Origin: Chloroflexota bacterium
GTDB taxonomy: Bacteria > Chloroflexota > UBA11872 > VXNJ01
NCBI GenBank assembly: GCA_030744875.1
Contig: JASLPR010000058.1
Location: 1 to 45,322, forward strand
DNA length: 45,322 bases
Reading direction: 5' to 3'
The notes beneath the pieces are model-generated. The model saw only the letters and a program-made list of their open reading frames with translations. It was not told the DNA's origin and ran no database searches. The position numbers and the translations under genes are program-made. Positions 3,625 through 42,752 of the stretch are shown in pieces; position 1 is the stretch's first letter, and the number at the start of each line of letters is the position of its first letter.

Positions 3625-3897
3625 CTAGCCGCCGGCGGCCGCCGGGACGATCGAGACCTCGGCGTCGGCCGGGACCTCGGCGTCCAGGCCGCCGAGGAAA
3701 CGGATGTCCTCGCCGCCGACGTAGACGCCGACGAAGGCCGACGGCTCACCCTTTTCGTCGAGCACCCGGTTCTTGATCCCCGGGTGCTTCGCGTCGATCT
3801 CGTCGAGAATTGCGCGGATCGTCCCTCCGGTAACCCGGAGCTTGCGCTCGCCGTCGACCAGGTTTCGCAATTGCGATGGAATTCTTACGGTTGCCAA
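3625..3897 (-). CDS. MoaD/ThiS-like ubiquitin-fold sulfur carrier protein
   Basis: 90 aa, beta-grasp-like pattern, ends in ...VSIVPAAAGG* (C-terminal GG as needed for thiocarboxylation); 25 nt downstream of the thrC-like stop. Confidence 0.88.
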   Translation of the reverse strand: MATVRIPSQLRNLVDGERKLRVTGGTIRAILDEIDAKHPGIKNRVLDEKGEPSAFVGVYVGGEDIRFLGGLDAEVPADAEVSIVPAAAGG

Positions 3898-3922: not shown

Positions 3923-5182
3923 TCACCGGGCCGCCTGGGCCAGGACCGCTTCTTGTTTATCCTCCAGCGCGTCCTCGAACGAGCCGATTGTCGGTTGGAT
4001 CGTCATGGTCACGGAGACGTGGCCGTCCACCGCCTCCTGAGTCTTGAGACCGTTGCCGGTGACGTACGCGACGGTGACTTCATCCTCGCCGATCGCGCCG
4101 TTCGCGGCCAGCTTTCTCAGGGTGGCGATGGTGACGCCGCCGGCGGCTTCGGTGAAGATGCCTTCCGTGGCGGCCAGTAGTTTGATGCCTTCCACCGTCT
4201 CGGCGTCGGTCACCGACTCGATCACGCCGCCGGTCCGCCGGGCCACTTCCAGCGAGTAGTTACCGTCGGCCGGATTGCCGATGGCCAGTGACTTCGCCAC
4301 CGTCTCCGGCTGGCGCACTGGTTCGAAGGCGTCCTCGCCGGCCGCGAAGGCGGCCGCCACCGGCCCGCAGCCCGCGGCCTGCGCCCCGGAGACCCGGACG
4401 CTCTGGCCGTCGATCAGGCCGACCGTCACCATCTCTTCGAAGCCCTGCGCGATCTTCGTGTAAAGCGCCCCCGAGGCGATCGGCACCACGACGTGATCGG
4501 GCGCTCGCCAGCCGAGCTGTTCGACGGTTTCAAAGGCCAGTGTTTTGGAACCCTCCGCGTAGTAGGGACGGACGTTGATGTTGCAGAACGCCCATTCTTC
4601 TTCATCGGCGATTTCCGAGCACAGCCGATTCAGTTGGTCGTAGGTGCCGTTAACGGCGATCAAATTCGCGCCGTAGACCGCCGCGTTGGTGATCTTGCCG
4701 GCCTCGACATCGGACGGCAGGAAGACGTAGGTCTCCATTTCGGCCTTCACTCCGGCGGCCGCCACGGCGCTGGCCAGGTTGCCGGTGGAGGCGCAGGCGA
4801 AGACGGTGTATCCGAGTTCGCGAGCCTTGGTGACCGCGATTGCCACCGGCCGGTCCTTGAACGAGTAGGTTGGGTTGACCGAGTCGTTCTTCACGTAGAG
4901 GTTCTTCAGGCCGATGGCGGCGCCCAGTCGCGGGGCGTACTGCAGCGGCGTGAAACCCACTCGCACATCGGAATCCCAGCCGGATTCCACCGGCAGCAGG
5001 TCGACATATCGCCACAGGCTTATCGGGCCGTTCTCGATTTTCTCGCGGCTGATGACCGACCTGATGTGGTCGTAGTCCAGCGCGACCTCTAGGGGGCCGA
5101 AGCAGAGTTCACATACGTGAATCCCGTTGGTCGCGTAGACCTCGCCGCATTCTTTACATTTGAGTCCCAAGACTTTGCTCAT
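3923..5182 (-). CDS. thrC: Threonine synthase-like PLP enzyme with N-terminal zinc ribbon
   Basis: Start taken at MSKVLGLKCKECGEVYATNGIHVCELC (zinc ribbon); PLP lysine in NPTYSFKDRPVA; CASTGNLASAVAA. The ORF-track extension upstream to 5341 lies in the riboswitch leader and is unlikely to be coding. Confidence 0.9.
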   Translation of the reverse strand: MSKVLGLKCKECGEVYATNGIHVCELCFGPLEVALDYDHIRSVISREKIENGPISLWRYVDLLPVESGWDSDVRVGFTPLQYAPRLGAAIGLKNLYVKNDSVNPTYSFKDRPVAIAVTKARELGYTVFACASTGNLASAVAAAGVKAEMETYVFLPSDVEAGKITNAAVYGANLIAVNGTYDQLNRLCSEIADEEEWAFCNINVRPYYAEGSKTLAFETVEQLGWRAPDHVVVPIASGALYTKIAQGFEEMVTVGLIDGQSVRVSGAQAAGCGPVAAAFAAGEDAFEPVRQPETVAKSLAIGNPADGNYSLEVARRTGGVIESVTDAETVEGIKLLAATEGIFTEAAGGVTIATLRKLAANGAIGEDEVTVAYVTGNGLKTQEAVDGHVSVTMTIQPTIGSFEDALEDKQEAVLAQAAR

Positions 5183-5345: not shown

Positions 5346-5367
5346 GGAACCCCGTACGAGGGGTTCC
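5346..5367 (-). terminator. Terminator/sequester-like hairpin of SAM riboswitch expression platform
   Basis: Perfect 8-bp stem ggaacccc / ggggttcc with 6-nt loop; weak U-tract on the minus strand (CUUGCAUGUCCC), so intrinsic termination is uncertain. Confidence 0.6.
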
Positions 5368-5397
5368 ACTAAAGACAGCTAATGCCAATTGTGGTCC

Positions 5398-5500
5398 TCT
5401 TATCTTGCAGGCAGGTCACCCACCGGAGTTGGCACCTGGTCCCATCGGGACTGGTTGCCGGGCTTCACAGGGCCGTATCCCTCCACCACTCTGGATAAGA
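5398..5500 (-). promoter_or_regulatory. SAM-I (S-box) riboswitch aptamer
   Basis: Minus strand reads CTTATCCAGAGTGGTGGAGGGATACGGCCCTGTGAAGCCCGGCAACC...GGTGCCAACTCC...AAGATAAG, matching the S-box core and P1 closure. Confidence 0.95.
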
Positions 5501-5535
5501 AAATCGGGTGTGACCACTTCTTCAGTTGTCCGAAA

Positions 5536-5563
5536 AGTATATCATTAGGCCGCTCGCCGTCGA
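5536..5563 (-). promoter_or_regulatory. Putative sigma-70-type promoter for the SAM riboswitch transcript
   Basis: Minus strand TCGACG-16 nt-TATACT, with the -10 about 36 nt upstream of the aptamer P1. Confidence 0.5.
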
Positions 5564-7935: not shown

Positions 7936-8168
7936 GCTGCCAATCCTCTCTGATTCGTGGGCCCATGGAATGTCTGTCGGGCAGTCGAAAGCGACATGGT
8001 CAGCGCACCCTCGAGCTTCCGCTACAGGCAAGTAACCTAGCACCAAACTAATGACAGTTTGTTCGTGCTACCAAAGCGGGTAGCATAACGTAGACCTCGT
8101 TCAGCATTCCCGACTAGGGGAGAGTCCCGGACGATAGTCGCCCGATGCTGGGAAGAAGCGTACCTCCT

Positions 8169-10994
8169 ATGGCAACTCCAACGAGAATTCGCGGGTACAT
8201 CGCTGGACGACTCTGGTTGCTGCTGGCCGCCGGGCTGGTTTTCGCCTTGGCGGGTGCCGCATCCCCGATCTTGGCGATCGGCACCTCCAACACCTGGGTA
8301 TCGCTGGGATCCATCCAGGCGGGGCGGGCGACCGCCGCGGAGGTCTCACCCCTCTTCTCTCTTGACGACAACGTCTTCTTCGCCAGCGATTCGGGTGGTG
8401 TTTATCGCAGTGTCGACGGAGGGTCCAACTTCACCCAGGTGAACAATGGGCTCACCGATCTTCGTGTTGGCAGCCTCTCCATCTCACCGCAGTTCAATGT
8501 TAATTCGGTGCTGTTCGCCAGCACACCCTCCGGGTTGTTCAAGTCGATCGATGCGGGCGGCAGCTGGAATACGGTGACCGGTGGGCTGCCTGCGGTCGAG
8601 GTCACCGGATTGGCATACTCTCCAACCTTCGCGACGGATACGACCGTTTATGCCGCGACGCTGGGTTTCGGCCTCTACGCCTCGGCCGATTCCGGATCAA
8701 CCTGGACTCTGCTGAGTACCACTGGGATGACCAATTTGAGCCTCACCGACGTGCAGGTGGTGGAAGGTGATTTCGGTAAGCTGTTGATGGTCGTTAGGAC
8801 AGCGGGTAAAGTCTTCCGCTCGGACGACACCGGTGTTACCTGGGCCGAGAAGACCACCGGGCTGCCGAGCGGCGTGGACATCACGGCGCTGGAGCTTTCC
8901 CCTGGGTTCCGCACCACCGATCTGGCTATGTTGGGGACCCGGTCGAACGGGATTTACCGCACGACTGACGGGGGCAATAACTGGGCTTCTATCGGGCTGG
9001 CCGACGATGATGCCTCGAACGTGTTCGAGTTTTCGACGGACTACACCGATGACAACACGGTGTTTGCCGGGACGACCACCGGTGGTTTCTACATTTCAAC
9101 CGACAACGGCGGTTCCTTCACTGCCAAGAACAGCGGGCTTGATCGCAAGAACATCACTGCGATCAGCTCATCCAACGACTACCGAACCGATAACACCGTC
9201 TTCGCCGGAGGCGGCCAGGGTGGAATCTTCAAGACGGTCGATGCCGGTGAGAATTGGCTCGAGATGGGAAGTGGGATCAACACTCCCCGTGGCCAGGCGA
9301 TCGATTTCTCCGACGACTACGTGAACGATGGCACAATGTTTGTTGCGACGCAGTCCGGTGTGTTCCGCTCCGCCGACCGTGGTACCACGTGGTCCCGTTT
9401 CTCGACGGGACTTCCGTTCCAGTCGGTGCTCTCGCTTGCCGTCTCTTCTAATTACAGCAATGACGGCCATGCTCTGGTGGGAGTGGAAGACAGCGGCTAC
9501 TACAGGACCTTCGTGGGATCGGCCAACAACGCTTGGATCACACAGAACGTTAACTTGGCCACGCCGATCCAGAACGGCCCGAACGCGCTGGCACTGTCTC
9601 CGAATTTCGGAACGGATCTCACGGCGTTTGCTGGGGGGCCCGGTGGGGTCTACAGGACGAGACAATCGGGCGCCCAGTGGAACCCGGTGGGCGCTGGCGT
9701 TATCCTCGCCGACGTCGATTCACTTGCGATCTCCCCGGGATTCGGCACCGATGCTACTCTCTTCGCCGCTACCCGCGGGGCGGGAATCTACCGGAGCACC
9801 AACAGCGGAGAATCATGGTCCGCAGTCAGCACCGGTCTCGGCAGCTTCGTCGTCGCCCAGGTGAGCATGTCACCAGACTTCACGGCGGATGGGGTTGTCC
9901 TAGCCGCCACGGACGCTGGGGTGTTCATTTCCACCGATCGAGGCTCCAACTGGTCGGCCACTTCGTTGACCAGCGGGGCGTCGGCGGTGGTATTCGCGAC
10001 CAGCGACCGGGCCTTCGCGGCCACTTCTGGAGTTGGTGGGGCCGTGCACCAATCGTCTGACGGTGGACGGACCTGGTCCACGATCACGAACGGCATGCCG
10101 CCTGGCGAGATCGTCAGCCTGGCGGTATCGCCGGACTTTGCCAACGATCTGAACGTCTTTGCAGGCACCGGCGGTCGCGGCGTGTGGGTCTATACCGACG
10201 GTTCTGGCACGGTTTCGACTCCCACCCAGGGTACCGCGACTATCACCAGCGCTACGGTCACCACCAACCTCTACCTAACTGATCCGACCGGTCTCAACAC
10301 ACAACTCAATCACAATGTGCCCAATCTGAACGTGCTGGTCGATGGCCAGCTGCGCAGTGCCAATTTCCGCGATCATTTCGACGAAACCGGCGGCATGGCG
10401 CGCTGGGGCCTGCCGACCTCGGAGGTCTTCGAAGAGACCCCTGGCACCCTGACCCAGTACTACCAACGGGGCGTTGTCGATTTCCATCGACGTGATGATC
10501 TCGGCGGCATCTGGCTGGTGGAACGCCGGCTGGCGTGGGATTTCGTCGGTGGCGGGCTCGGCGGCAGCACCGACCAGGGGGTCGAACCGCAGATCACCAA
10601 TCCTAACGAAGGCGTGGTCCTTGAATGGGGGCACAAGATTTCCGACTTCGACATCACTGGTACGGATGTCGGTTTCCGTCGCTTTTTCGACGAACTTGGC
10701 GGGACCCAGAGTTTCGGGTTTCCGAAGACCGATGCCCGCGAAGATACCGGGGCCGCCGGGATGTTGCTGGCGCCCGGGTCGGACCTCGGCTGGATTCGGC
10801 AGTACTTCCAGGCCGCAGTGTTCGAATATCACCCTGAGGCGCCCGACGGATTCAAGGTGCAGCTGTCGCTGCTCGGCGACACGCTTCGCAACCAGAACTA
10901 CCCCAATGAGAGTTGGGTCGCTCTGACCCCCTTCCTGCCCGCTACCGAAGTGGTCGACGACTCCGCGTTCACCGTCGTGGCGGTGAATCGGTAG
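8169..10994 (+). CDS. Secreted BNR/sortilin-like beta-propeller protein with C-terminal LGFP-like repeats
   Basis: N-terminal hydrophobic segment; repeated SPxFxxDxxVFAATxxGVxRSxDxGxxW blades (14 by eye); C-term WGLPTSE and FGFPKTD repeats with QYYQRG/QYFQAAVFEYHPE; start at 8145 or 8169. Confidence 0.85.
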   Translation: MATPTRIRGYIAGRLWLLLAAGLVFALAGAASPILAIGTSNTWVSLGSIQAGRATAAEVSPLFSLDDNVFFASDSGGVYRSVDGGSNFTQVNNGLTDLRVGSLSISPQFNVNSVLFASTPSGLFKSIDAGGSWNTVTGGLPAVEVTGLAYSPTFATDTTVYAATLGFGLYASADSGSTWTLLSTTGMTNLSLTDVQVVEGDFGKLLMVVRTAGKVFRSDDTGVTWAEKTTGLPSGVDITALELSPGFRTTDLAMLGTRSNGIYRTTDGGNNWASIGLADDDASNVFEFSTDYTDDNTVFAGTTTGGFYISTDNGGSFTAKNSGLDRKNITAISSSNDYRTDNTVFAGGGQGGIFKTVDAGENWLEMGSGINTPRGQAIDFSDDYVNDGTMFVATQSGVFRSADRGTTWSRFSTGLPFQSVLSLAVSSNYSNDGHALVGVEDSGYYRTFVGSANNAWITQNVNLATPIQNGPNALALSPNFGTDLTAFAGGPGGVYRTRQSGAQWNPVGAGVILADVDSLAISPGFGTDATLFAATRGAGIYRSTNSGESWSAVSTGLGSFVVAQVSMSPDFTADGVVLAATDAGVFISTDRGSNWSATSLTSGASAVVFATSDRAFAATSGVGGAVHQSSDGGRTWSTITNGMPPGEIVSLAVSPDFANDLNVFAGTGGRGVWVYTDGSGTVSTPTQGTATITSATVTTNLYLTDPTGLNTQLNHNVPNLNVLVDGQLRSANFRDHFDETGGMARWGLPTSEVFEETPGTLTQYYQRGVVDFHRRDDLGGIWLVERRLAWDFVGGGLGGSTDQGVEPQITNPNEGVVLEWGHKISDFDITGTDVGFRRFFDELGGTQSFGFPKTDAREDTGAAGMLLAPGSDLGWIRQYFQAAVFEYHPEAPDGFKVQLSLLGDTLRNQNYPNESWVALTPFLPATEVVDDSAFTVVAVNR

Positions 10995-11030
10995 GCCCAC
11001 GGCAACTTTTGGGGAATGGGCGGTGTATTC

Positions 11031-11086
11031 TTGGCTCGGCGGGCTCGGTAGGGCGCCGCCCCTGGCGGAGCGTTCCGCCGAGCCAA
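11031..11086. repeat. Intergenic inverted repeat between tandem propeller genes
   Basis: TTGGCTCGGCGG (11031-11042) is the perfect reverse complement of CCGCCGAGCCAA (11075-11086). Confidence 0.7.
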
Positions 11087-11159
11087 CCGAGCCAACATCA
11101 AGCAATTGAATCTGGCCTGCGGGCGGCGCGGGCGCCCGCCAACGATGGAGATGATCTAG

Positions 11160-13178
11160 ATGCCTATTCGAAAGCGACGGCGAGGATTTCTCGGGCTCCT
11201 GGCCGCGTTGGTGGTGTTTGTGGCCCCGGTGGCCCCGGCGCTGGCGCTGGGCACGGCCGGCCAGTGGACCGCCCTGAACGGACCTCCCGGCGGCCCCTTC
11301 ACCAGCATCGTGGCCTCTCCGGACTTCTCGTTCGATTCGTCGATCTTCGTCTCCACGTCCAGCGCCGGGGTCTTCCGCAGCAGCGACGGCGGTGGTACCT
11401 TCACCCGCCTGACCACCGGGCTCACTGATTTCAGCGTGAACCAGATCGCTGTCTCGCCGTCAATTCAAACTGACGGGACGATCTTCGCCGCCACCGCGTC
11501 CGGTGTTTTCAAGACCACCGACGCCGGCCTCAGCTGGTCCGAAGTCAGCAGCGGCCTGCCGGATGGGGCGATCAACGGCGTCGCGATTTCGCCCACCTAT
11601 TCCACAGACTCGCGCGTGTATGTCTCCACTCCCGCTGACGGTGTGTTCCGAACCATCGACGGCGGGGCCAACTGGACCCGCCCCGGCTTTGGCGGCATGA
11701 CCAACATGGCGATCATTGGCGTCGCCGTCTCGCCGGCGAGCGCCGATGAGGTCTTCGCCTGGACTGTTGGCACGGTCTTCCGCAGTACTAACAGCGCCCT
11801 CAGCTGGTCCGAACGCATCGTCGGGGTGGCTTCGACCGCCACGCTCACCGAGCTGGTCATTTCCCCGAACTACGGCGCCGATGGCGTGGTGTACCTGGGT
11901 ACGCCGACCAACGGTGTGTATCGCACGGCGGACTCCGGCGGCACCTGGGCCAGCGTCGGGCTTGCGAGCAGCGGGTCCATCCAGGGCCTCGTGATCTCCG
12001 GCAACTACGGCCGTGACACCACCCTCTTCGCCGCCACCGCCACCGGAGGGGTATCCCGCAGCACCGACAGCGGTGGCACATGGACCGCGGTGAACACCGG
12101 ACTCACCGGCACCGACTACGGACAGCTCGCGATTTCCAACGACTACTTCGTCGACCGCACGCTCTTCACCGGCAGCGCCAGCGGCTTCCTCTACAAATCG
12201 ACCGACGCCGGCGCCGGCTGGTCGCTGGTTGGATCCGGGATCGCCAACGCCAACGTAGTTGGACTCGGCTTTTCGAATTCCTACGCCACCGACTCCACGA
12301 TGGTCGCGGCCACCCAGGGTGGGGTATTCAAGACGACTGACGGCGGTTCCGTCTGGGCCTCGATCAACGGCGACCTGCCGTCCACCGATGTCCAGCAGTT
12401 CGCGCTGGCGCCCGGCTATCCGACCGATGACTCCGTCCTGGTCACCCTCGTGACCAGCGGCATCTACCGGACGTTCTCCGACGGCGGCTGGTGGGACGTG
12501 CAGAACACCGGCCTCAACCCGGTGCTCCGGTCAAACCCGCGGGCGCTGACCCTGTCGCCCGGCTACGGTACCGACCTCACCGCCTATGTCGGCGGGCCTT
12601 CCGGCGCCTACCGCTCGGTTGATGGCGGCGCCACCTGGAGCGCTATCAACACCGGCATTAACTACACCGACGTGTCGGCGTTCGGGCTCTCGCCGGCGTT
12701 TGCCACCGACAACACCATGTTCGCCGGCACCGCCGGCGGCGGAATGTACAAGTCGACCGATCGCGGCAGCAACTGGGTTGCGGCCACTTCCGGAATCACC
12801 GACGGCACCATCAACGCCATCGCGGTCTCCCCGGCCTATGCGACCGACGGGACCGTCCTGGCGGCCACTGACGGCGGCGTGTTTCGTTCGACCGACGGTG
12901 GGGCCACCTGGCAGGGTTCCGGCCTGGCGTCCGCCGCGTTGAGCGTGGTGGTGTCGACGAGTTTCGCCACCGACGGCATCGCGTTCGCCGCCACCATCGG
13001 ACCCGGCGGCACCGTCTACGGGTCCAGCGATGGTGGGCTCACCTGGAGCCAGCTGGGCAGCAACCTGACCTCCGGATTGCCGCTGCTGGTGGTGGTTTCC
13101 CCGAACTACGCGGTCGATCAGAACGTCTTCGTCGGGACATCCGACGCTGGCCTCTGGGTGTACCAGGGCGCTCCCTAG
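11160..13178 (+). CDS. Secreted BNR/sortilin-like beta-propeller protein (paralog of upstream gene, lacking the C-terminal extension)
   Basis: Signal-like N-terminus; 14 blades by eye with FRSTDGGATW-type Asp-box motifs; same blade order as 8169..10994. Confidence 0.85.
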   Translation: MPIRKRRRGFLGLLAALVVFVAPVAPALALGTAGQWTALNGPPGGPFTSIVASPDFSFDSSIFVSTSSAGVFRSSDGGGTFTRLTTGLTDFSVNQIAVSPSIQTDGTIFAATASGVFKTTDAGLSWSEVSSGLPDGAINGVAISPTYSTDSRVYVSTPADGVFRTIDGGANWTRPGFGGMTNMAIIGVAVSPASADEVFAWTVGTVFRSTNSALSWSERIVGVASTATLTELVISPNYGADGVVYLGTPTNGVYRTADSGGTWASVGLASSGSIQGLVISGNYGRDTTLFAATATGGVSRSTDSGGTWTAVNTGLTGTDYGQLAISNDYFVDRTLFTGSASGFLYKSTDAGAGWSLVGSGIANANVVGLGFSNSYATDSTMVAATQGGVFKTTDGGSVWASINGDLPSTDVQQFALAPGYPTDDSVLVTLVTSGIYRTFSDGGWWDVQNTGLNPVLRSNPRALTLSPGYGTDLTAYVGGPSGAYRSVDGGATWSAINTGINYTDVSAFGLSPAFATDNTMFAGTAGGGMYKSTDRGSNWVAATSGITDGTINAIAVSPAYATDGTVLAATDGGVFRSTDGGATWQGSGLASAALSVVVSTSFATDGIAFAATIGPGGTVYGSSDGGLTWSQLGSNLTSGLPLLVVVSPNYAVDQNVFVGTSDAGLWVYQGAP

Positions 13179-13346
13179 CACCGGAGCCGGCGGCCGGGTG
13201 GGGGAGCGGGACGGCAAGGCTCGGGAGTGGGCGCTGGCGTGCCGTCGGGTCGCTTTCGTGCCGGTGTCCCGCTATGGCCGGGCTAGAATCGGCGGCGGTC
13301 GGCTTTTGCGACCGGTCCTGGGGGCGTCCAACCTTCTTGAGCAGCA

Positions 13347-14372
13347 ATGACTGATTCCGCTTCGGGAACTGACCCTTCCCGCGAATACCCGCGAATCCTC
13401 GGCTCCAACGCCGACCGGTTTTTCGTGCCCACCGTGGAAGAGCGTCGGGAGCAGCGTGCGCGCGACGAGACCCACATCTCGCTCGTGGCCGCCTCGCTGA
13501 TATTCCTAGTGGTGGACGCCCTCTGGGCGTTGATCTCGGCGGTTTTGCTCAGTGATTTTCGAGTCTCCAGCCTGGCGGTGCTGGTCGTCGACGTGGCCGT
13601 CGTCGCCCTGACCCGAAGTTCCGGGCAGCAGGCGCGCACCGCCGTGCTTCTCCGCGCGCTGCTGGGAATCACGTTCTTCGCGGTCGAGTTCGCCCTGTTC
13701 GACGCCAGCTACGCCTACCTGCTCGGGCAGGCGCTCATCGGCGCCGGGGCGGTCGTCCTGTCCGTGGGCCGCGGTGGCGAGGGGCGCAACGTGCTGGGCG
13801 GCGCCTTCGCGGCCATCGGCCTGGTGCTGGCGATTGTCCTGATGATCGTGCAGACCCAGGGGCACTTCCGCGAACTCGACGAGCAGTTCAACCGGGCCTT
13901 TGAATTGGCCGCGGTGGGCCGGACGGAAGATGCACGGGAAATAGTGGACCAGCTGCTCGCCGACAACCCGGATGATGCGGCGGTGTACATCAACTCGGCC
14001 GACTTCTTTCAGCAGGTACTCAGGGATCCCGATACCGCGCTGGCTCTGGCGCTGAAGGCGGTTGAGATCGCCGATGGCGATCTGCAAATCCCGGCCTTAT
14101 CCAGGGTCGCCGACCTCTATGCCGCCCGGCAGGACCTCCCCCGGGCTTTGCAGTATGCCGAGCAAGCGATCGCCAGAGACGACGACGTCGCGGCTCTCTT
14201 CTTGCTTCGGGCCAGAATATTTCTCGGCATGGAGAGGACCCAGGACGCCCTGGCTGACCTTCGCCGGGTCGAGGAAATGGAGCCAAACTCCGATCTAGGG
14301 CGGCAGGCCCGGTTCGTCCGACTCAGTATCGAAGATCCCGATTTCTCGACCCTGATCCCCGCCGGCCGCTAG
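13347..14372 (+). CDS. Membrane protein with C-terminal TPR-like repeats
   Basis: Several hydrophobic helices in the first half; AVYINSADFFQQVLRDPDTALALALKAVEIADGD... and ALQYAEQAIARDDDVAALFLLRARIFLGM typical of TPR. Confidence 0.7.
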   Translation: MTDSASGTDPSREYPRILGSNADRFFVPTVEERREQRARDETHISLVAASLIFLVVDALWALISAVLLSDFRVSSLAVLVVDVAVVALTRSSGQQARTAVLLRALLGITFFAVEFALFDASYAYLLGQALIGAGAVVLSVGRGGEGRNVLGGAFAAIGLVLAIVLMIVQTQGHFRELDEQFNRAFELAAVGRTEDAREIVDQLLADNPDDAAVYINSADFFQQVLRDPDTALALALKAVEIADGDLQIPALSRVADLYAARQDLPRALQYAEQAIARDDDVAALFLLRARIFLGMERTQDALADLRRVEEMEPNSDLGRQARFVRLSIEDPDFSTLIPAGR

Positions 14373-36257: not shown

Positions 36258-37316
36258 CTAGCTGGCCGGCAGGAAGTCGTTGGTGAAGGCCGCCTCCCAA
36301 TCGATCACCGCTTCCACAAGTCCCTGCTCCGCCATCCACTCGGACATCGTTTGCCAGACCGCGCCGTCCTGGTGGCCCCACTGCGGAGCATCGGCCTGGT
36401 ACTGCGGGCCCAGCCACTCCTGCGACGGCCCCACCAGCGCGGCGTCGGTCTCCGGCGCCGCCGCCAGCAGGATTTCCGCCGCCGCCGCCGGATCGGCGAT
36501 CGCGCTGGCGTAGCCCTTGCTGATGGCGCTCATCGCCCGGGTCACCACATCGGGATTGGTGTCGATCAGGTCCTCGCTCGCTATGATGAGCGGCGTGTAG
36601 TAGTCGGGCACGCCCCAGTCCTTCACAAACAGCGTCTCGATCTCGATTCCCTCCAATTCGGCCTTCACCCCCTGCCAACCGTAGAAGATCCAGTACAGGT
36701 CGACATCGCGCTGGATGATCGTGAGGAAGTCGGCCGCCCCGGCGTCCACCGTCGTCACCTTGCTGAAGTCGCCGCCATCGGCCTCCATCATCGTCTGCAG
36801 CAGCGCGAATTCCAGTGGCGAACCGAATCCGCCGTAGGTCAGTCCCTCGAAGTCCCTGGGGCGGGTAACTGCGCTGGATTTGAGCGACGCGAAACCGGAC
36901 GTATTGTGCTGGATGATCGCCGCCACCGAGACCACCGGCACGCCCTCGGCCCGCGCCGGGGTCATGAATTCCTGGAAGTCGATGCCGAAGTCGGCCTGCC
37001 CGGTAGCCACCACCTGGGGCCTGCCGCCGGTGGCCGGTTCCACGATCTCCATTTCGATGCCCTCGTCCGCGAACAGCCCGTTGTCGCGAGCCACATAGAG
37101 CCCGGTGTGATTGGTGTTGGGCACCCAGTCGAGCACCAGCGATAGCTCGTCCGCGGCCGCCGGTTCGGGTTTCGTCTCCGCCACCACCGCGACCGGCGCC
37201 GCCGTCGGCGCGGGCGCTGCCTCGACCGGCGCCGGTGCATCTTCCGTGCAACCGGCCAGGGCCGCCGTCGCCAGCATCCCGCCGGCAAGACCCAGCAATT
37301 GTCTTCTTGAGATCAC
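36258..37316 (-). CDS. ABC transporter substrate-binding protein, NMT1/THI5-like (ThiY-type)
   Basis: Start GTG MISRRQLLGLAGGMLATAALAGC lipobox; LVLDWVPNTNHTGLYVARDNGLFADEGIEMEIVEPA; GTGA overlap with the upstream permease. Confidence 0.92.
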   Translation of the reverse strand: MISRRQLLGLAGGMLATAALAGCTEDAPAPVEAAPAPTAAPVAVVAETKPEPAAADELSLVLDWVPNTNHTGLYVARDNGLFADEGIEMEIVEPATGGRPQVVATGQADFGIDFQEFMTPARAEGVPVVSVAAIIQHNTSGFASLKSSAVTRPRDFEGLTYGGFGSPLEFALLQTMMEADGGDFSKVTTVDAGAADFLTIIQRDVDLYWIFYGWQGVKAELEGIEIETLFVKDWGVPDYYTPLIIASEDLIDTNPDVVTRAMSAISKGYASAIADPAAAAEILLAAAPETDAALVGPSQEWLGPQYQADAPQWGHQDGAVWQTMSEWMAEQGLVEAVIDWEAAFTNDFLPAS

Positions 37317-38113
37317 AGTTCCCCCTCGTCTTCTCGATATGACCACGGCATCGATAGCCGGGCAATGATTTCGATAGTCAGGTAGGCGGCGACGGCGATT
37401 ACTGACACGATCACGATCACCGCCATCGCGCGGTCGGTGCGAAATGAGTTTTGCGAGCGGATCAGGAATACGCCCAGGCCCTGGCTGGCCCCCAGCCATT
37501 CGGCGATCAGCGCCCCGATCACCGCGTAGGTCGCCGCGATCTTGCTCCCCGAGGCCAGCGCCGGCAGCGCCGCCGGGAGCCGGCCGATGCGAAACATCTG
37601 CCAGCGATTCGCGCCCATCGCCCGCAGCAGCAGCAGGATTTCGTTGTCCGCCGCCCGCAGGCCGTCCAGGAAAGAGACGCAGATCGGGAAGAAGCACACC
37701 AGCACGACCAGGGCCACCTTCGGGGTGATCCCAAACCCAAACCAGATCACCAGCAGCGGCGCTAGCACGATCACAGGTACCGACTGGGACGTCACCAGCA
37801 ACGGGTAGACCGTGCGCCGGATGGGATCCGACAGATGGCTCGCCACCGCCACCGTCACTCCCAGCAACAGCGCGATCGTGAAGCCCAGCGCCATTTCCAG
37901 CAGCGTGATCCCGGCGTGGGACCAGAGCAGATCGGCCGATTCCGCCATCGCCCGGCCGATATCCAGCGGCGACGGCAGCAGCCAGCGCGGGGTGTCCCGC
38001 CACTCGACCATGATCTGCCACACGGCCAGGATCGCCGCGAACGTACCCAGCGCCGGGGCCAGCCGGCGGACCCGGCCGCTTCCGGTCAACGCACCTCCGA
38101 ACCGCGCCAGCAC
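37313..38113 (-). CDS. ABC transporter permease (ThiX/SsuC-type)
   Basis: Multi-TM; EAA-like loop LRAADNEILLLLRAMGANRWQMFRIGRLPAALPALASGSKIAATYAVIGALIAEW. Confidence 0.9.
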   Translation of the reverse strand: MLARFGGALTGSGRVRRLAPALGTFAAILAVWQIMVEWRDTPRWLLPSPLDIGRAMAESADLLWSHAGITLLEMALGFTIALLLGVTVAVASHLSDPIRRTVYPLLVTSQSVPVIVLAPLLVIWFGFGITPKVALVVLVCFFPICVSFLDGLRAADNEILLLLRAMGANRWQMFRIGRLPAALPALASGSKIAATYAVIGALIAEWLGASQGLGVFLIRSQNSFRTDRAMAVIVIVSVIAVAAYLTIEIIARLSMPWSYREDEGEL

Positions 38114-38478: not shown

Positions 38479-38501
38479 ATCCCTCTGTGGAAATGAATCC
38501 G

Positions 38502-38592
38502 TCTTCCTACGCCGGCATTACCCGGTTCAGGTTCAGAGGGAATGCGGCGTGTGGGGCCGCTATCTCAGCCGGATCTACTCCAGCTCCCCCGC
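38502..38592 (-). promoter_or_regulatory. TPP (THI-box) riboswitch
   Basis: Minus strand GGGGAGCTGGAG...GGCTGAGATAGCGG...CCCTCTGAACCTGAACCGGGTAATGCCGGCGTAGGAAG. Confidence 0.96.
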
Positions 38593-38662
38593 GGAAATCG
38601 TCGTTCAGCTTTCTTGGTTGTGCGCCGCTACCCTCAGACCGTCCCACCGTGGCGCGCTGCTG

Positions 38663-40162: not shown

Positions 40163-41368
40163 GTGATCCCGACCTCTGCGCTCAAGACCCTGCACCTGGC
40201 CGATGAGGGCAAGCTCGTGCTGCTCGTCTTGGACGGGCTCGGCGGCCTGCCGCACCCCGACACCGGGCTCACCGAGCTGGAGTCCGCCCGCACGCCCAAT
40301 CTCGACCTGCTGGCCCGCGAGGGCATCGTCGGCCTCAGCGAACCGGTCGGTCCTGGCATCACGCCCGGCAGCGGGCCCGGCCACCTGGCCCTCTTTGGCT
40401 ACGACCCCATCGCCGGCAACATCGGCCGCGGCGCGCTTTCGGCGCTTGGCATCGGGCTGGACCTGGCCCCCGAGGACATCGGCGTCCGCCTCAATTTCTG
40501 CACGATTGACTCCGACGGCAACGTCACCGACCGCCGCGCCGGGCGGATTCCCACTGACCTGAACCGCGAACTTGTCGCCGACCTCTCATCCATCGAGATC
40601 GACGGTGTGGAGATCGAACTCGCCACTGAGAGCCAGCACCGCGCCGTGCTGGTGCTGCGCGGCGCGGGCCTGCACCCGGCCGTGCGCGAGACTGATCCTC
40701 AGCAGACCGGGGTGCCGCCGCTGGCCCCCGACGCCCTAGCCCCCGAGGCCGCCGCCACCGAGGCGATCCTGCAACGATTCCTCGCCGGCGTCCGCGAGGT
40801 CATCGGCGACCGCTCACCGGCAAACTTCGTCCTCATGCGCGGCTACGCCGGTCTGCCGGCGCTGGAATCGCTGGAAGAAATCTACGGCGTCAAGTCCGCC
40901 TGCGTGGCCGCCTACCCGATGTACAAAGGCCTGGCCACCATCGCCGGCATGGACATCTTGGACACCGGCGACACCTTCCCCGGCGAGGTCGCGGCCTTGC
41001 AGCGCCACTGGGACGACTACGACTTCTTCTTCTTCCACTTCAAGGACACCGACTCGCTCGGCGAGGACGGCAACTTCGACGGCAAAGTCGCCGCCATTGA
41101 AGAGGTCGACGCGGCGATCCCGGAGATCGTCGGCCTCGGGCCGGCGGCGCTGGCCGTCACCGGCGACCACTCCACCCCCGCCCGCCTGCACCAGCATTCA
41201 TGGCACCCGGTCCCCTTCCTACTGCATGCCGGGCATGCCGTCCCGGATGCCGCCACCGCGTTCGGCGAGCGCGCCTGCGGCACCGGCAGCCTCGGGATCT
41301 TCCCGGCGCGAAACACCATGAGCCTGCTTGTCGGCTATGCTGGTCGGCTCAAGAAATTCGGTGCCTGA
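40163..41368 (+). CDS. apgM: 2,3-bisphosphoglycerate-independent phosphoglycerate mutase, archaeal type (ApgM)
   Basis: LVLLVLDGLGGLPHP, GITPGSGPGHLALFGYDP, RADFNFC-like LNFCTIDSDGNVTDRRAGR, HFKDTDSLGEDGNFDGKVAAIEEVD, TGDHSTPARLHQHSWHPVPFLL; GTG start. Confidence 0.93.
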   Translation: MIPTSALKTLHLADEGKLVLLVLDGLGGLPHPDTGLTELESARTPNLDLLAREGIVGLSEPVGPGITPGSGPGHLALFGYDPIAGNIGRGALSALGIGLDLAPEDIGVRLNFCTIDSDGNVTDRRAGRIPTDLNRELVADLSSIEIDGVEIELATESQHRAVLVLRGAGLHPAVRETDPQQTGVPPLAPDALAPEAAATEAILQRFLAGVREVIGDRSPANFVLMRGYAGLPALESLEEIYGVKSACVAAYPMYKGLATIAGMDILDTGDTFPGEVAALQRHWDDYDFFFFHFKDTDSLGEDGNFDGKVAAIEEVDAAIPEIVGLGPAALAVTGDHSTPARLHQHSWHPVPFLLHAGHAVPDAATAFGERACGTGSLGIFPARNTMSLLVGYAGRLKKFGA

Positions 41369-42752
41369 GCAGCCCGACGGCGCCGGTGGTGGGGCGTCGG
41401 CAGACCCTCGCCGATCCTTGCCGGCCGTTGATGTGTTGATTGCCCGGGTCCACGAGTTGGCTCCGGAAATCCCCGCGTCGGTCGCCACCAGTCAGGCCCG
41501 CCTGGAACTGGATCGTCTCCGGCGAGGCCTGGATCACGAAGGCGACCTCCCCGACACAAACGCGCTGGCCGAATCCGTGGTCCGGAGCGCCCAACGGCTG
41601 CTCGCCCCGGCGCCGCAGCCGGTCATCAACGCCACCGGGGTCATCGTCCACACCAACCTCGGGCGCGCCCTGCTGTCCGACCGCGCCATCGCGGCCCTCC
41701 AGGAGGCCGCGCGCGGCTACTCCGATCTCGAATACGACGTGGCCAGCGGCCGGCGCGGTTCGCGGCGGGTCCACGTCGAGGACCTCCTCTGCGAACTCAC
41801 CGGCGCCGAGGCCGCGCTGGTCGTCAACAACAACGCCGGCGCGGTCTACCTCTGCCTGGCGGCCTTGGCCGGCGGCCGCGAGGTCCCGGTCAGCCGCGGC
41901 GAGGCCGTCGAGATTGGCGGCGGCTTCCGCATTCCCGACATCCTCAGCCAGAGCAGGGCAATTCTCCGCGATGTCGGCACCACCAACCGCACCCGCCTGG
42001 CCGACTATGCGGCGGCAATCGGGCCGAATACCGCCCTGCTACTCCGGGTCCACACCAGCAATTTCCTGGTGGTCGGTTTCACCGAAGGTCTGCCGCTGGA
42101 AGATCTCTGCGCCCTCGGGGATCAACACTCGATTCCGGTGATGAACGACCTCGGCAGCGGCACTCTGCTGCCAACCGAAGAGCACGGACTCGACCCCGAG
42201 CCGACGGTTCAGGAGAGCGTTGCCGCCGGCGCCGCCCTGACAACCTTCTCCGGCGACAAACTCCTGGGCGGCCCGCAGGCCGGCATCATCGTCGGCCGGC
42301 GCGACCTGGTGGATGCCGTCGCCGCCTATCCGCTCACCCGCGCGCTGCGCGCCGACAAGCTCTGTCTGGCGGCGCTGCACGCCACTCTGCTGGCCTACGT
42401 AGCGGGCGTCGCCGAGAGCGAGATTCCGGTCTGGCGGATGATCGCCGCCTCGATCGCCGATCTCAAGCGCCGCGCTCAGGCCTGGGCCGCCGCGCTCGGA
42501 AGCGGCTTCGACGCCGAGGTCATCCCCGCCGAGGCCACCGTCGGCGGCGGGTCGCTGCCCGGCCAGGTAATTCCCTCGGTGGCCCTGCGGATCGCGTCGC
42601 CGGATCACTCTCCCGATGAACTCGCGGCCGCGCTACGCGCCGCCCGGCCGCCGGTCATCGGGCGGATCGAAGCCGACGCCTTCCTGCTATCCCCGCGCAC
42701 CGTGCTGGAGCGTGAAGACGGGGCCCTGATCGCCGCGCTACGGGGGCTCTGA
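41361..42752 (+). CDS. selA: L-seryl-tRNA(Sec) selenium transferase SelA
   Basis: VINATGVIVHTNLGRALLSDRAI, YSDLEYDVASGRRGSR, NNNAGAVYL, DLGSGTLL, FSGDKLLGGPQAGIIVG; GTG start overlapping the apgM stop (GTGCCTGA). Confidence 0.95.
   Translation: MPEQPDGAGGGASADPRRSLPAVDVLIARVHELAPEIPASVATSQARLELDRLRRGLDHEGDLPDTNALAESVVRSAQRLLAPAPQPVINATGVIVHTNLGRALLSDRAIAALQEAARGYSDLEYDVASGRRGSRRVHVEDLLCELTGAEAALVVNNNAGAVYLCLAALAGGREVPVSRGEAVEIGGGFRIPDILSQSRAILRDVGTTNRTRLADYAAAIGPNTALLLRVHTSNFLVVGFTEGLPLEDLCALGDQHSIPVMNDLGSGTLLPTEEHGLDPEPTVQESVAAGAALTTFSGDKLLGGPQAGIIVGRRDLVDAVAAYPLTRALRADKLCLAALHATLLAYVAGVAESEIPVWRMIAASIADLKRRAQAWAAALGSGFDAEVIPAEATVGGGSLPGQVIPSVALRIASPDHSPDELAAALRAARPPVIGRIEADAFLLSPRTVLEREDGALIAALRGL

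Follow-up and report, generated by a model that had tools for sequence, protein, structure and literature searches.

A SAM-I riboswitch precedes a predicted metM-metO homocysteine synthase operon in Chloroflexota

The window considered here is a stretch of 45,322 nucleotides from a Chloroflexota bacterium (contig JASLPR010000058.1), belonging to a draft genome of 2.3 Mb in 97 contigs that is 89% complete. Its minus strand carries a SAM-I (S-box) riboswitch aptamer at positions 5397..5501. RF00162 matches it over its full length (78.5 bits, gathering cut-off 44.4; E 6e-17), and the draft genome has no other match to this family. A complete S-box core on this strand had been proposed from the sequence, and the covariance search confirms it; the site at 5398-5500 was placed correctly, although each end fell 1 base short of the Rfam match. 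The complete set of core motifs is present (CAGAG, GGAGGGA, UGAA, GGCAACC, GGUGCCAA-UCC and AAGAUAAGA), with a P1 pairing of CUUAUC/GAUAAG. S-box riboswitches switch expression off when SAM is high. Elsewhere in the window, a TPP riboswitch (38486-38600, minus strand, 67 bits) lies ahead of an ORF for an NMT1/THI5-like substrate-binding protein (36258-38021) that probably serves thiamine-precursor uptake, a SelA-like gene (41328-42752, plus strand, 448 bits) suggests the use of selenocysteine in this genome, and two long ORFs at 8145-13178 (plus strand), the first with BNR/sortilin-like propeller repeats found by Pfam and the second similar by eye, probably encode secreted or surface proteins.

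The next genes on the minus strand are, as originally described, a threonine-synthase-like (PALP) gene followed by a ThiS/MoaD-type gene. The first, here called metM (3923..5182), encodes a 419-aa ThrC-like pyridoxal phosphate (PLP) enzyme predicted from its PALP domain, clade profile, tree position and active-site residues to be an O-phosphohomoserine-dependent homocysteine synthase, with 231 bits to PALP and 723 bits to the MetM-clade profile. Its start appears best placed at the ATG at 5182 and not at the ORF-finder's 5341, because both the clade-profile match and the zinc-ribbon N-terminus, with its four cysteines (C9, C12, C24 and C27), begin there. The second gene, metO (3625..3897, Pfam ThiS 38.4 bits), has a TTG start at 3897, 25 nt past the metM stop codon, and encodes a 90-aa sulfur carrier that terminates precisely at Gly-Gly (VPAAAGG). 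Many MetO tails of other loci (L045, L119-L134 and others; L-numbers denote loci, G-numbers genomes) run 1 to 10 or more residues beyond Gly-Gly, and trimming by a protease would be needed there before thiocarboxylation. An E1-like activating enzyme for MetO was not located. On another contig (G000:C76, ~9940-14079, minus strand), some 3 kb separate a JAB-domain protease gene from a threonine synthase paralog of PRK08197 type (568 bits, cut-off 303); the protease gene's product could be a carrier-processing protease, and the gene is unlinked to the metM-metO operon.

Between the aptamer and metM, about 30 nt past the aptamer and in the presumed expression platform, lies a terminator-like hairpin (5367-5346, that is 5346..5367 on the minus strand) with the stem GGAACCCC/GGGGUUCC, the loop UCGUAC and a folding energy of -14.7 kcal/mol. 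Reading by eye, the segment GAGG...CCAC that follows P1 can pair with GUGG...CCUC on the 5' side of the hairpin, which would give the leader the mutually exclusive pairings typical of S-boxes. With abundant SAM, the aptamer would close P1, the antiterminator pairing would be blocked, and the following hairpin would lower transcription. Hairpins placed equivalently in relatives are followed by U-runs (G002, GGGGGUUUUUGUUU; G003, GGGGUUUUUGUUUUG). Termination in the window itself is something that we infer, since its U-tract is weak (UUGCAUG) and a terminator scan of its leader detected none; the case for attenuation is built on what relatives show, given the outcome of that scan and a leader whose folding stability is not above that of shuffles. 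Both the SAM response and the attenuation step are predictions for this locus. A promoter-like site (TCGACG - 16 nt - TATACT, with TG before the second hexamer; 5536..5563, minus strand) sits just upstream of the riboswitch, but a consensus scan that found 1 such site against 0.3 expected in shuffles is no evidence of function.

The linkage of riboswitch and genes extends well beyond the window. RF00162 has matches in 75 of a sample of 101 genomes (the window genome and 100 relatives), and the riboswitch is followed by metM in every riboswitch-bearing member of the class (36/36, the window counted). The metO gene follows metM in 35 of these 36 class members, the one exception being a contig end. 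The same riboswitch-metM-metO order is found in other classes of the phylum (G046, G052, G063, G075, G083, G088, G091 and G099), while in G056 riboswitch and metM are present and metO was not found. In a scan of a genome collection, loci with the ThrC-like/MoaD-like pair bore titles that include Acidobacteria, Nitrospinae, Leptospirillum and Thermodesulfobacteriota; four of these loci, from other phyla (L120, L127, L129 and L133), have a SAM riboswitch directly upstream. The actinomycete Nonomuraea gerenzanensis, used as a reference in place of Streptomyces MetM, encodes an enzyme that is 51% identical, with a SAM riboswitch (68.7 bits) upstream and a MetO-like gene downstream, and the window MetM groups with this stand-in homolog and its shared neighbourhood. 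In a MAG labelled Nitrosocosmicus (L131:3362-5978), the ORF after the gene for a MetM-clade enzyme encodes 446 aa and matches a carrier weakly; it may represent a fusion of a carrier with its activating enzyme.

A maximum-likelihood tree of 57 MetM-type sequences, the window protein among them, and 26 canonical ThrC sequences, including those of PDB 2zsj and 6cgq, separates the two groups with support values of 100/98 and 100/100, and the window protein falls outside the solved ThrC enzymes. Four changes are fixed between the groups (57/57 versus 26/26; 2zsj numbering): T90 to L, S157 to N, N159 to R, and R162 to Y. A fifth, N190 to S, is found in 46/57 MetM-type sequences, and the window protein has L136, N203, Y208 and S237 at the positions of T90, S157, R162 and N190, respectively. 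Both groups conserve the PLP lysine and the STGN loop. We take the changed positions, T90, S157, R162 and N190 in particular, to include ligands of the substrate phosphate in Thermus ThrC, an assumption for which a literature search found no confirming paper. The question of whether metM is the only thrC in its genome can be answered in the negative, as three further thrC-like ORFs lie elsewhere in the window genome and most class relatives have a separate canonical ThrC; beside these three divergent paralogs, no ThrC of canonical type was found in the window genome.

Some relatives place the gene pair under a different regulatory element. In G058, a T-box leader scoring 98.9 bits, above the cut-off, precedes metM-metO-thrB (L176:1768-2055), and its specifier, read by eye from the alignment, is AUG (Met) in the consensus context GAAA-NNN-ACC. 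In G042 (L177:2511-2848) and G054 (L178:2559-2896), which count as one case because they belong to one genus, a weak SAM riboswitch (37.9 and 30.4 bits, both sub-cut-off) stands in tandem with a T-box of about 69 bits, below the cut-off of 93, ahead of metM-metO; here too an AUG specifier is read by eye, in the close variant GAAG-AUG-AUC. In both of these genomes the neighbours of the pair are another ThrC-like gene, distinct from metM, and thrB, assigned to a GHMP kinase, and the SAM-riboswitch operon of G056 comprises metM, asd, an aspartokinase-type gene and thrB, so that thrB neighbours metM in four relatives (G058, G042, G054 and G056). As read from these arrangements, the T-box and thrB contexts point to methionine as the product and O-phosphohomoserine as the substrate.

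Another line of evidence comes from the enzymes that are missing. In the window genome (a draft, 89% complete), no PF01053 enzyme (MetB, MetC, MetY or MetZ) was found above the cut-off, and neither MetX nor the DUF39 homocysteine enzyme was found, while a homoserine kinase, thrB (248 bits), and an S-methyltransferase (249 bits) are present. At this completeness an absent gene could simply reflect missing sequence, although relatives that are 94-98% complete show the same gaps. Across the sample, 45 of the 101 genomes have no strong PF01053 match (best E above 1e-50), and the MetM clade is present in 38 of them; of the other seven, four have DUF39 and three have neither (G012, G021 and G067). 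G012, a genome of the same order that is 96% complete, has no detectable MetM, strong PF01053, strong MetX or DUF39. By comparison, MetM occurs in 17 of the 56 genomes with PF01053, a skew with a Fisher p of 4e-8 that overstates independence because the genomes are related. Relatives also carry the same riboswitch before metY or metX (for example G074:C17, G071:C23, G087:C46, G051:C66 and G094:C38), and the window's riboswitch differs from others of the group in controlling metM instead of metX/metY-type targets.

Taken together, the aptamer, the conserved gene order, the place of the enzyme in the MetM clade, the gap in the pathway and the thrB gene are best read as a SAM-repressed metM-metO homocysteine synthase operon, to which we assign a probability of about 0.9. 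MetM reportedly uses thiocarboxylated MetO and O-phosphohomoserine directly to form homocysteine. By analogy, MetO, a ubiquitin-like sulfur carrier, would be charged as a C-terminal thiocarboxylate, homoserine kinase would supply O-phospho-L-homoserine to the threonine-synthase-fold enzyme MetM, MetM would combine this substrate with the sulfur of MetO to yield homocysteine, and the methyltransferase would convert homocysteine to methionine. Catalysis by MetM and the source of its sulfur are predicted here from homology, regulation and pathway gaps. The original prediction was that an operon shut off by SAM makes homocysteine or methionine and not, or not only, threonine. It gains support from the riboswitch linkage and the separate clade, from finding no other homocysteine route and from the complementarity with metX/metY and DUF39, as well as from the AUG-specifier T-boxes of relatives and a published enzyme of the MetM/MetO type (PMC12172450). 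The SAM regulation, which had been called metabolically odd for a threonine synthase, makes sense because the gene pair matches the homocysteine-making MetM-MetO, an explanation already published in 2024.

Among the alternatives, the one that fares best, although it is improbable, is a bifunctional enzyme that can turn O-phosphohomoserine into either threonine or homocysteine, MetO directing it to the latter. Dual activity is made conceivable by a Microcystis ThrC, 51.6% identical to MetM, which made threonine in vitro (PMC12172450), and the retained PLP lysine and STGN core, together with the lack of a canonical-type ThrC beside the three divergent paralogs found in the window genome, would fit such a role. 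Canonical ThrC nevertheless coexists with MetM in most class relatives, residues fixed in ThrC are altered in MetM, and neither the AUG-specifier T-boxes nor the SAM control carries a threonine signal. Even less probable is an ordinary threonine synthase under SAM control, for instance one that spares homoserine phosphate during methionine shortage. The S-box, which is off at high SAM, has the wrong sign for control of that kind; a sulfur carrier is the enzyme's near-constant partner; and on this reading the genome would lack any known route to homocysteine. The window protein does score 281 bits with the thrC model TIGR00260, above the cut-off, the solved structures nearest to it in sequence are those of threonine synthases, and the Microcystis result bears on this reading as well; but the MetM clade stands apart from canonical ThrC and lacks the ThrC-fixed residues, most class relatives have a separate canonical ThrC, and G042 and G054 have a ThrC-like gene and thrB alongside the pair. 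Operons that join a ThiS/MoaD-like carrier to a cysteine synthase are known (PMC1779556), but it is least probable of all that the pair makes cysteine in a CysM/CysO-like reaction with O-phosphoserine, SAM being a general sulfur signal, given an enzyme that is ThrC-like and not CysK/CysM-like, thrB adjoining metM in four relatives, Met-specifier T-boxes before metM, and a distribution of metM complementary to that of metX/metY.

With the homocysteine synthase operon as the preferred reading, a broader statement can be made with slightly better than even odds: that a whole Chloroflexota class makes its homocysteine mainly or solely through MetM-MetO, that the pair is also present in several other phyla, regulated by SAM riboswitches and, in some lineages, tRNA-Met T-boxes, and that it may fill part of the gap in Aquifex, Pyrolobus and Acidimicrobium, for which Price et al. 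2018 reported homocysteine synthesis as unsolved (PMC5764234). Within the literature searched, the wide distribution of MetM-MetO and its link to Met T-boxes appear to be new; the text of Iyer 2006 names no threonine synthase neighbourhood. What is added to the knowledge of MetM-MetO is its breadth, a distribution complementary to that of the other routes to homocysteine, residues fixed within the clade, and T-boxes with an AUG specifier. This distribution suggests that little-cultured lineages commonly use the route described from Streptomyces in 2024. Many 'threonine synthase' annotations may denote homocysteine synthases, and MetM-bearing genomes are likely to be mis-scored as methionine auxotrophs. 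Simple markers for telling MetM from ThrC are the riboswitch, a sulfur-carrier gene next door and, in certain relatives, a T-box whose specifier is AUG.

Compared with canonical ThrC (PDB 2zsj and 6cgq), MetM shares the fold-type II PLP architecture, the SFKDR lysine, the STGN loop and about 36% identity, but forms a separate clade in which ThrC-invariant residues are altered in 57/57 sequences, and it has an N-terminal four-Cys ribbon and a sulfur-carrier partner. The protein-thiocarboxylate methionine route of Wolinella reportedly consists of HcyS, HcyD and MetY. Like that route (Krishnamoorthy and Begley 2011, cited in PMC5764234), the one proposed here would have a thiocarboxylated carrier deliver sulfur to an activated homoserine, and some relatives' MetO has extra C-terminal residues that would need trimming; the difference is that the PF01053 enzyme MetY, not found in the window genome, is replaced by a ThrC-fold enzyme. 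The closest counterpart is the MetM of Streptomyces described by Hasebe et al. 2024 (AEM 90:e01247-24), a threonine synthase homolog that acts as a homocysteine synthase with the sulfur carrier MetO; PMC12172450, which reports that work, gives a SAM riboswitch upstream of metM and homologs in cyanobacteria. Although the window belongs to a different phylum, its function is predicted, and its enzyme is about 51% identical to the actinomycete relative, it resembles the Streptomyces system, as described there, in its ThrC-like PLP enzyme, its adjacent sulfur-carrier gene, its upstream SAM riboswitch, and a genome in which a homoserine kinase is present and no canonical homocysteine genes were found.
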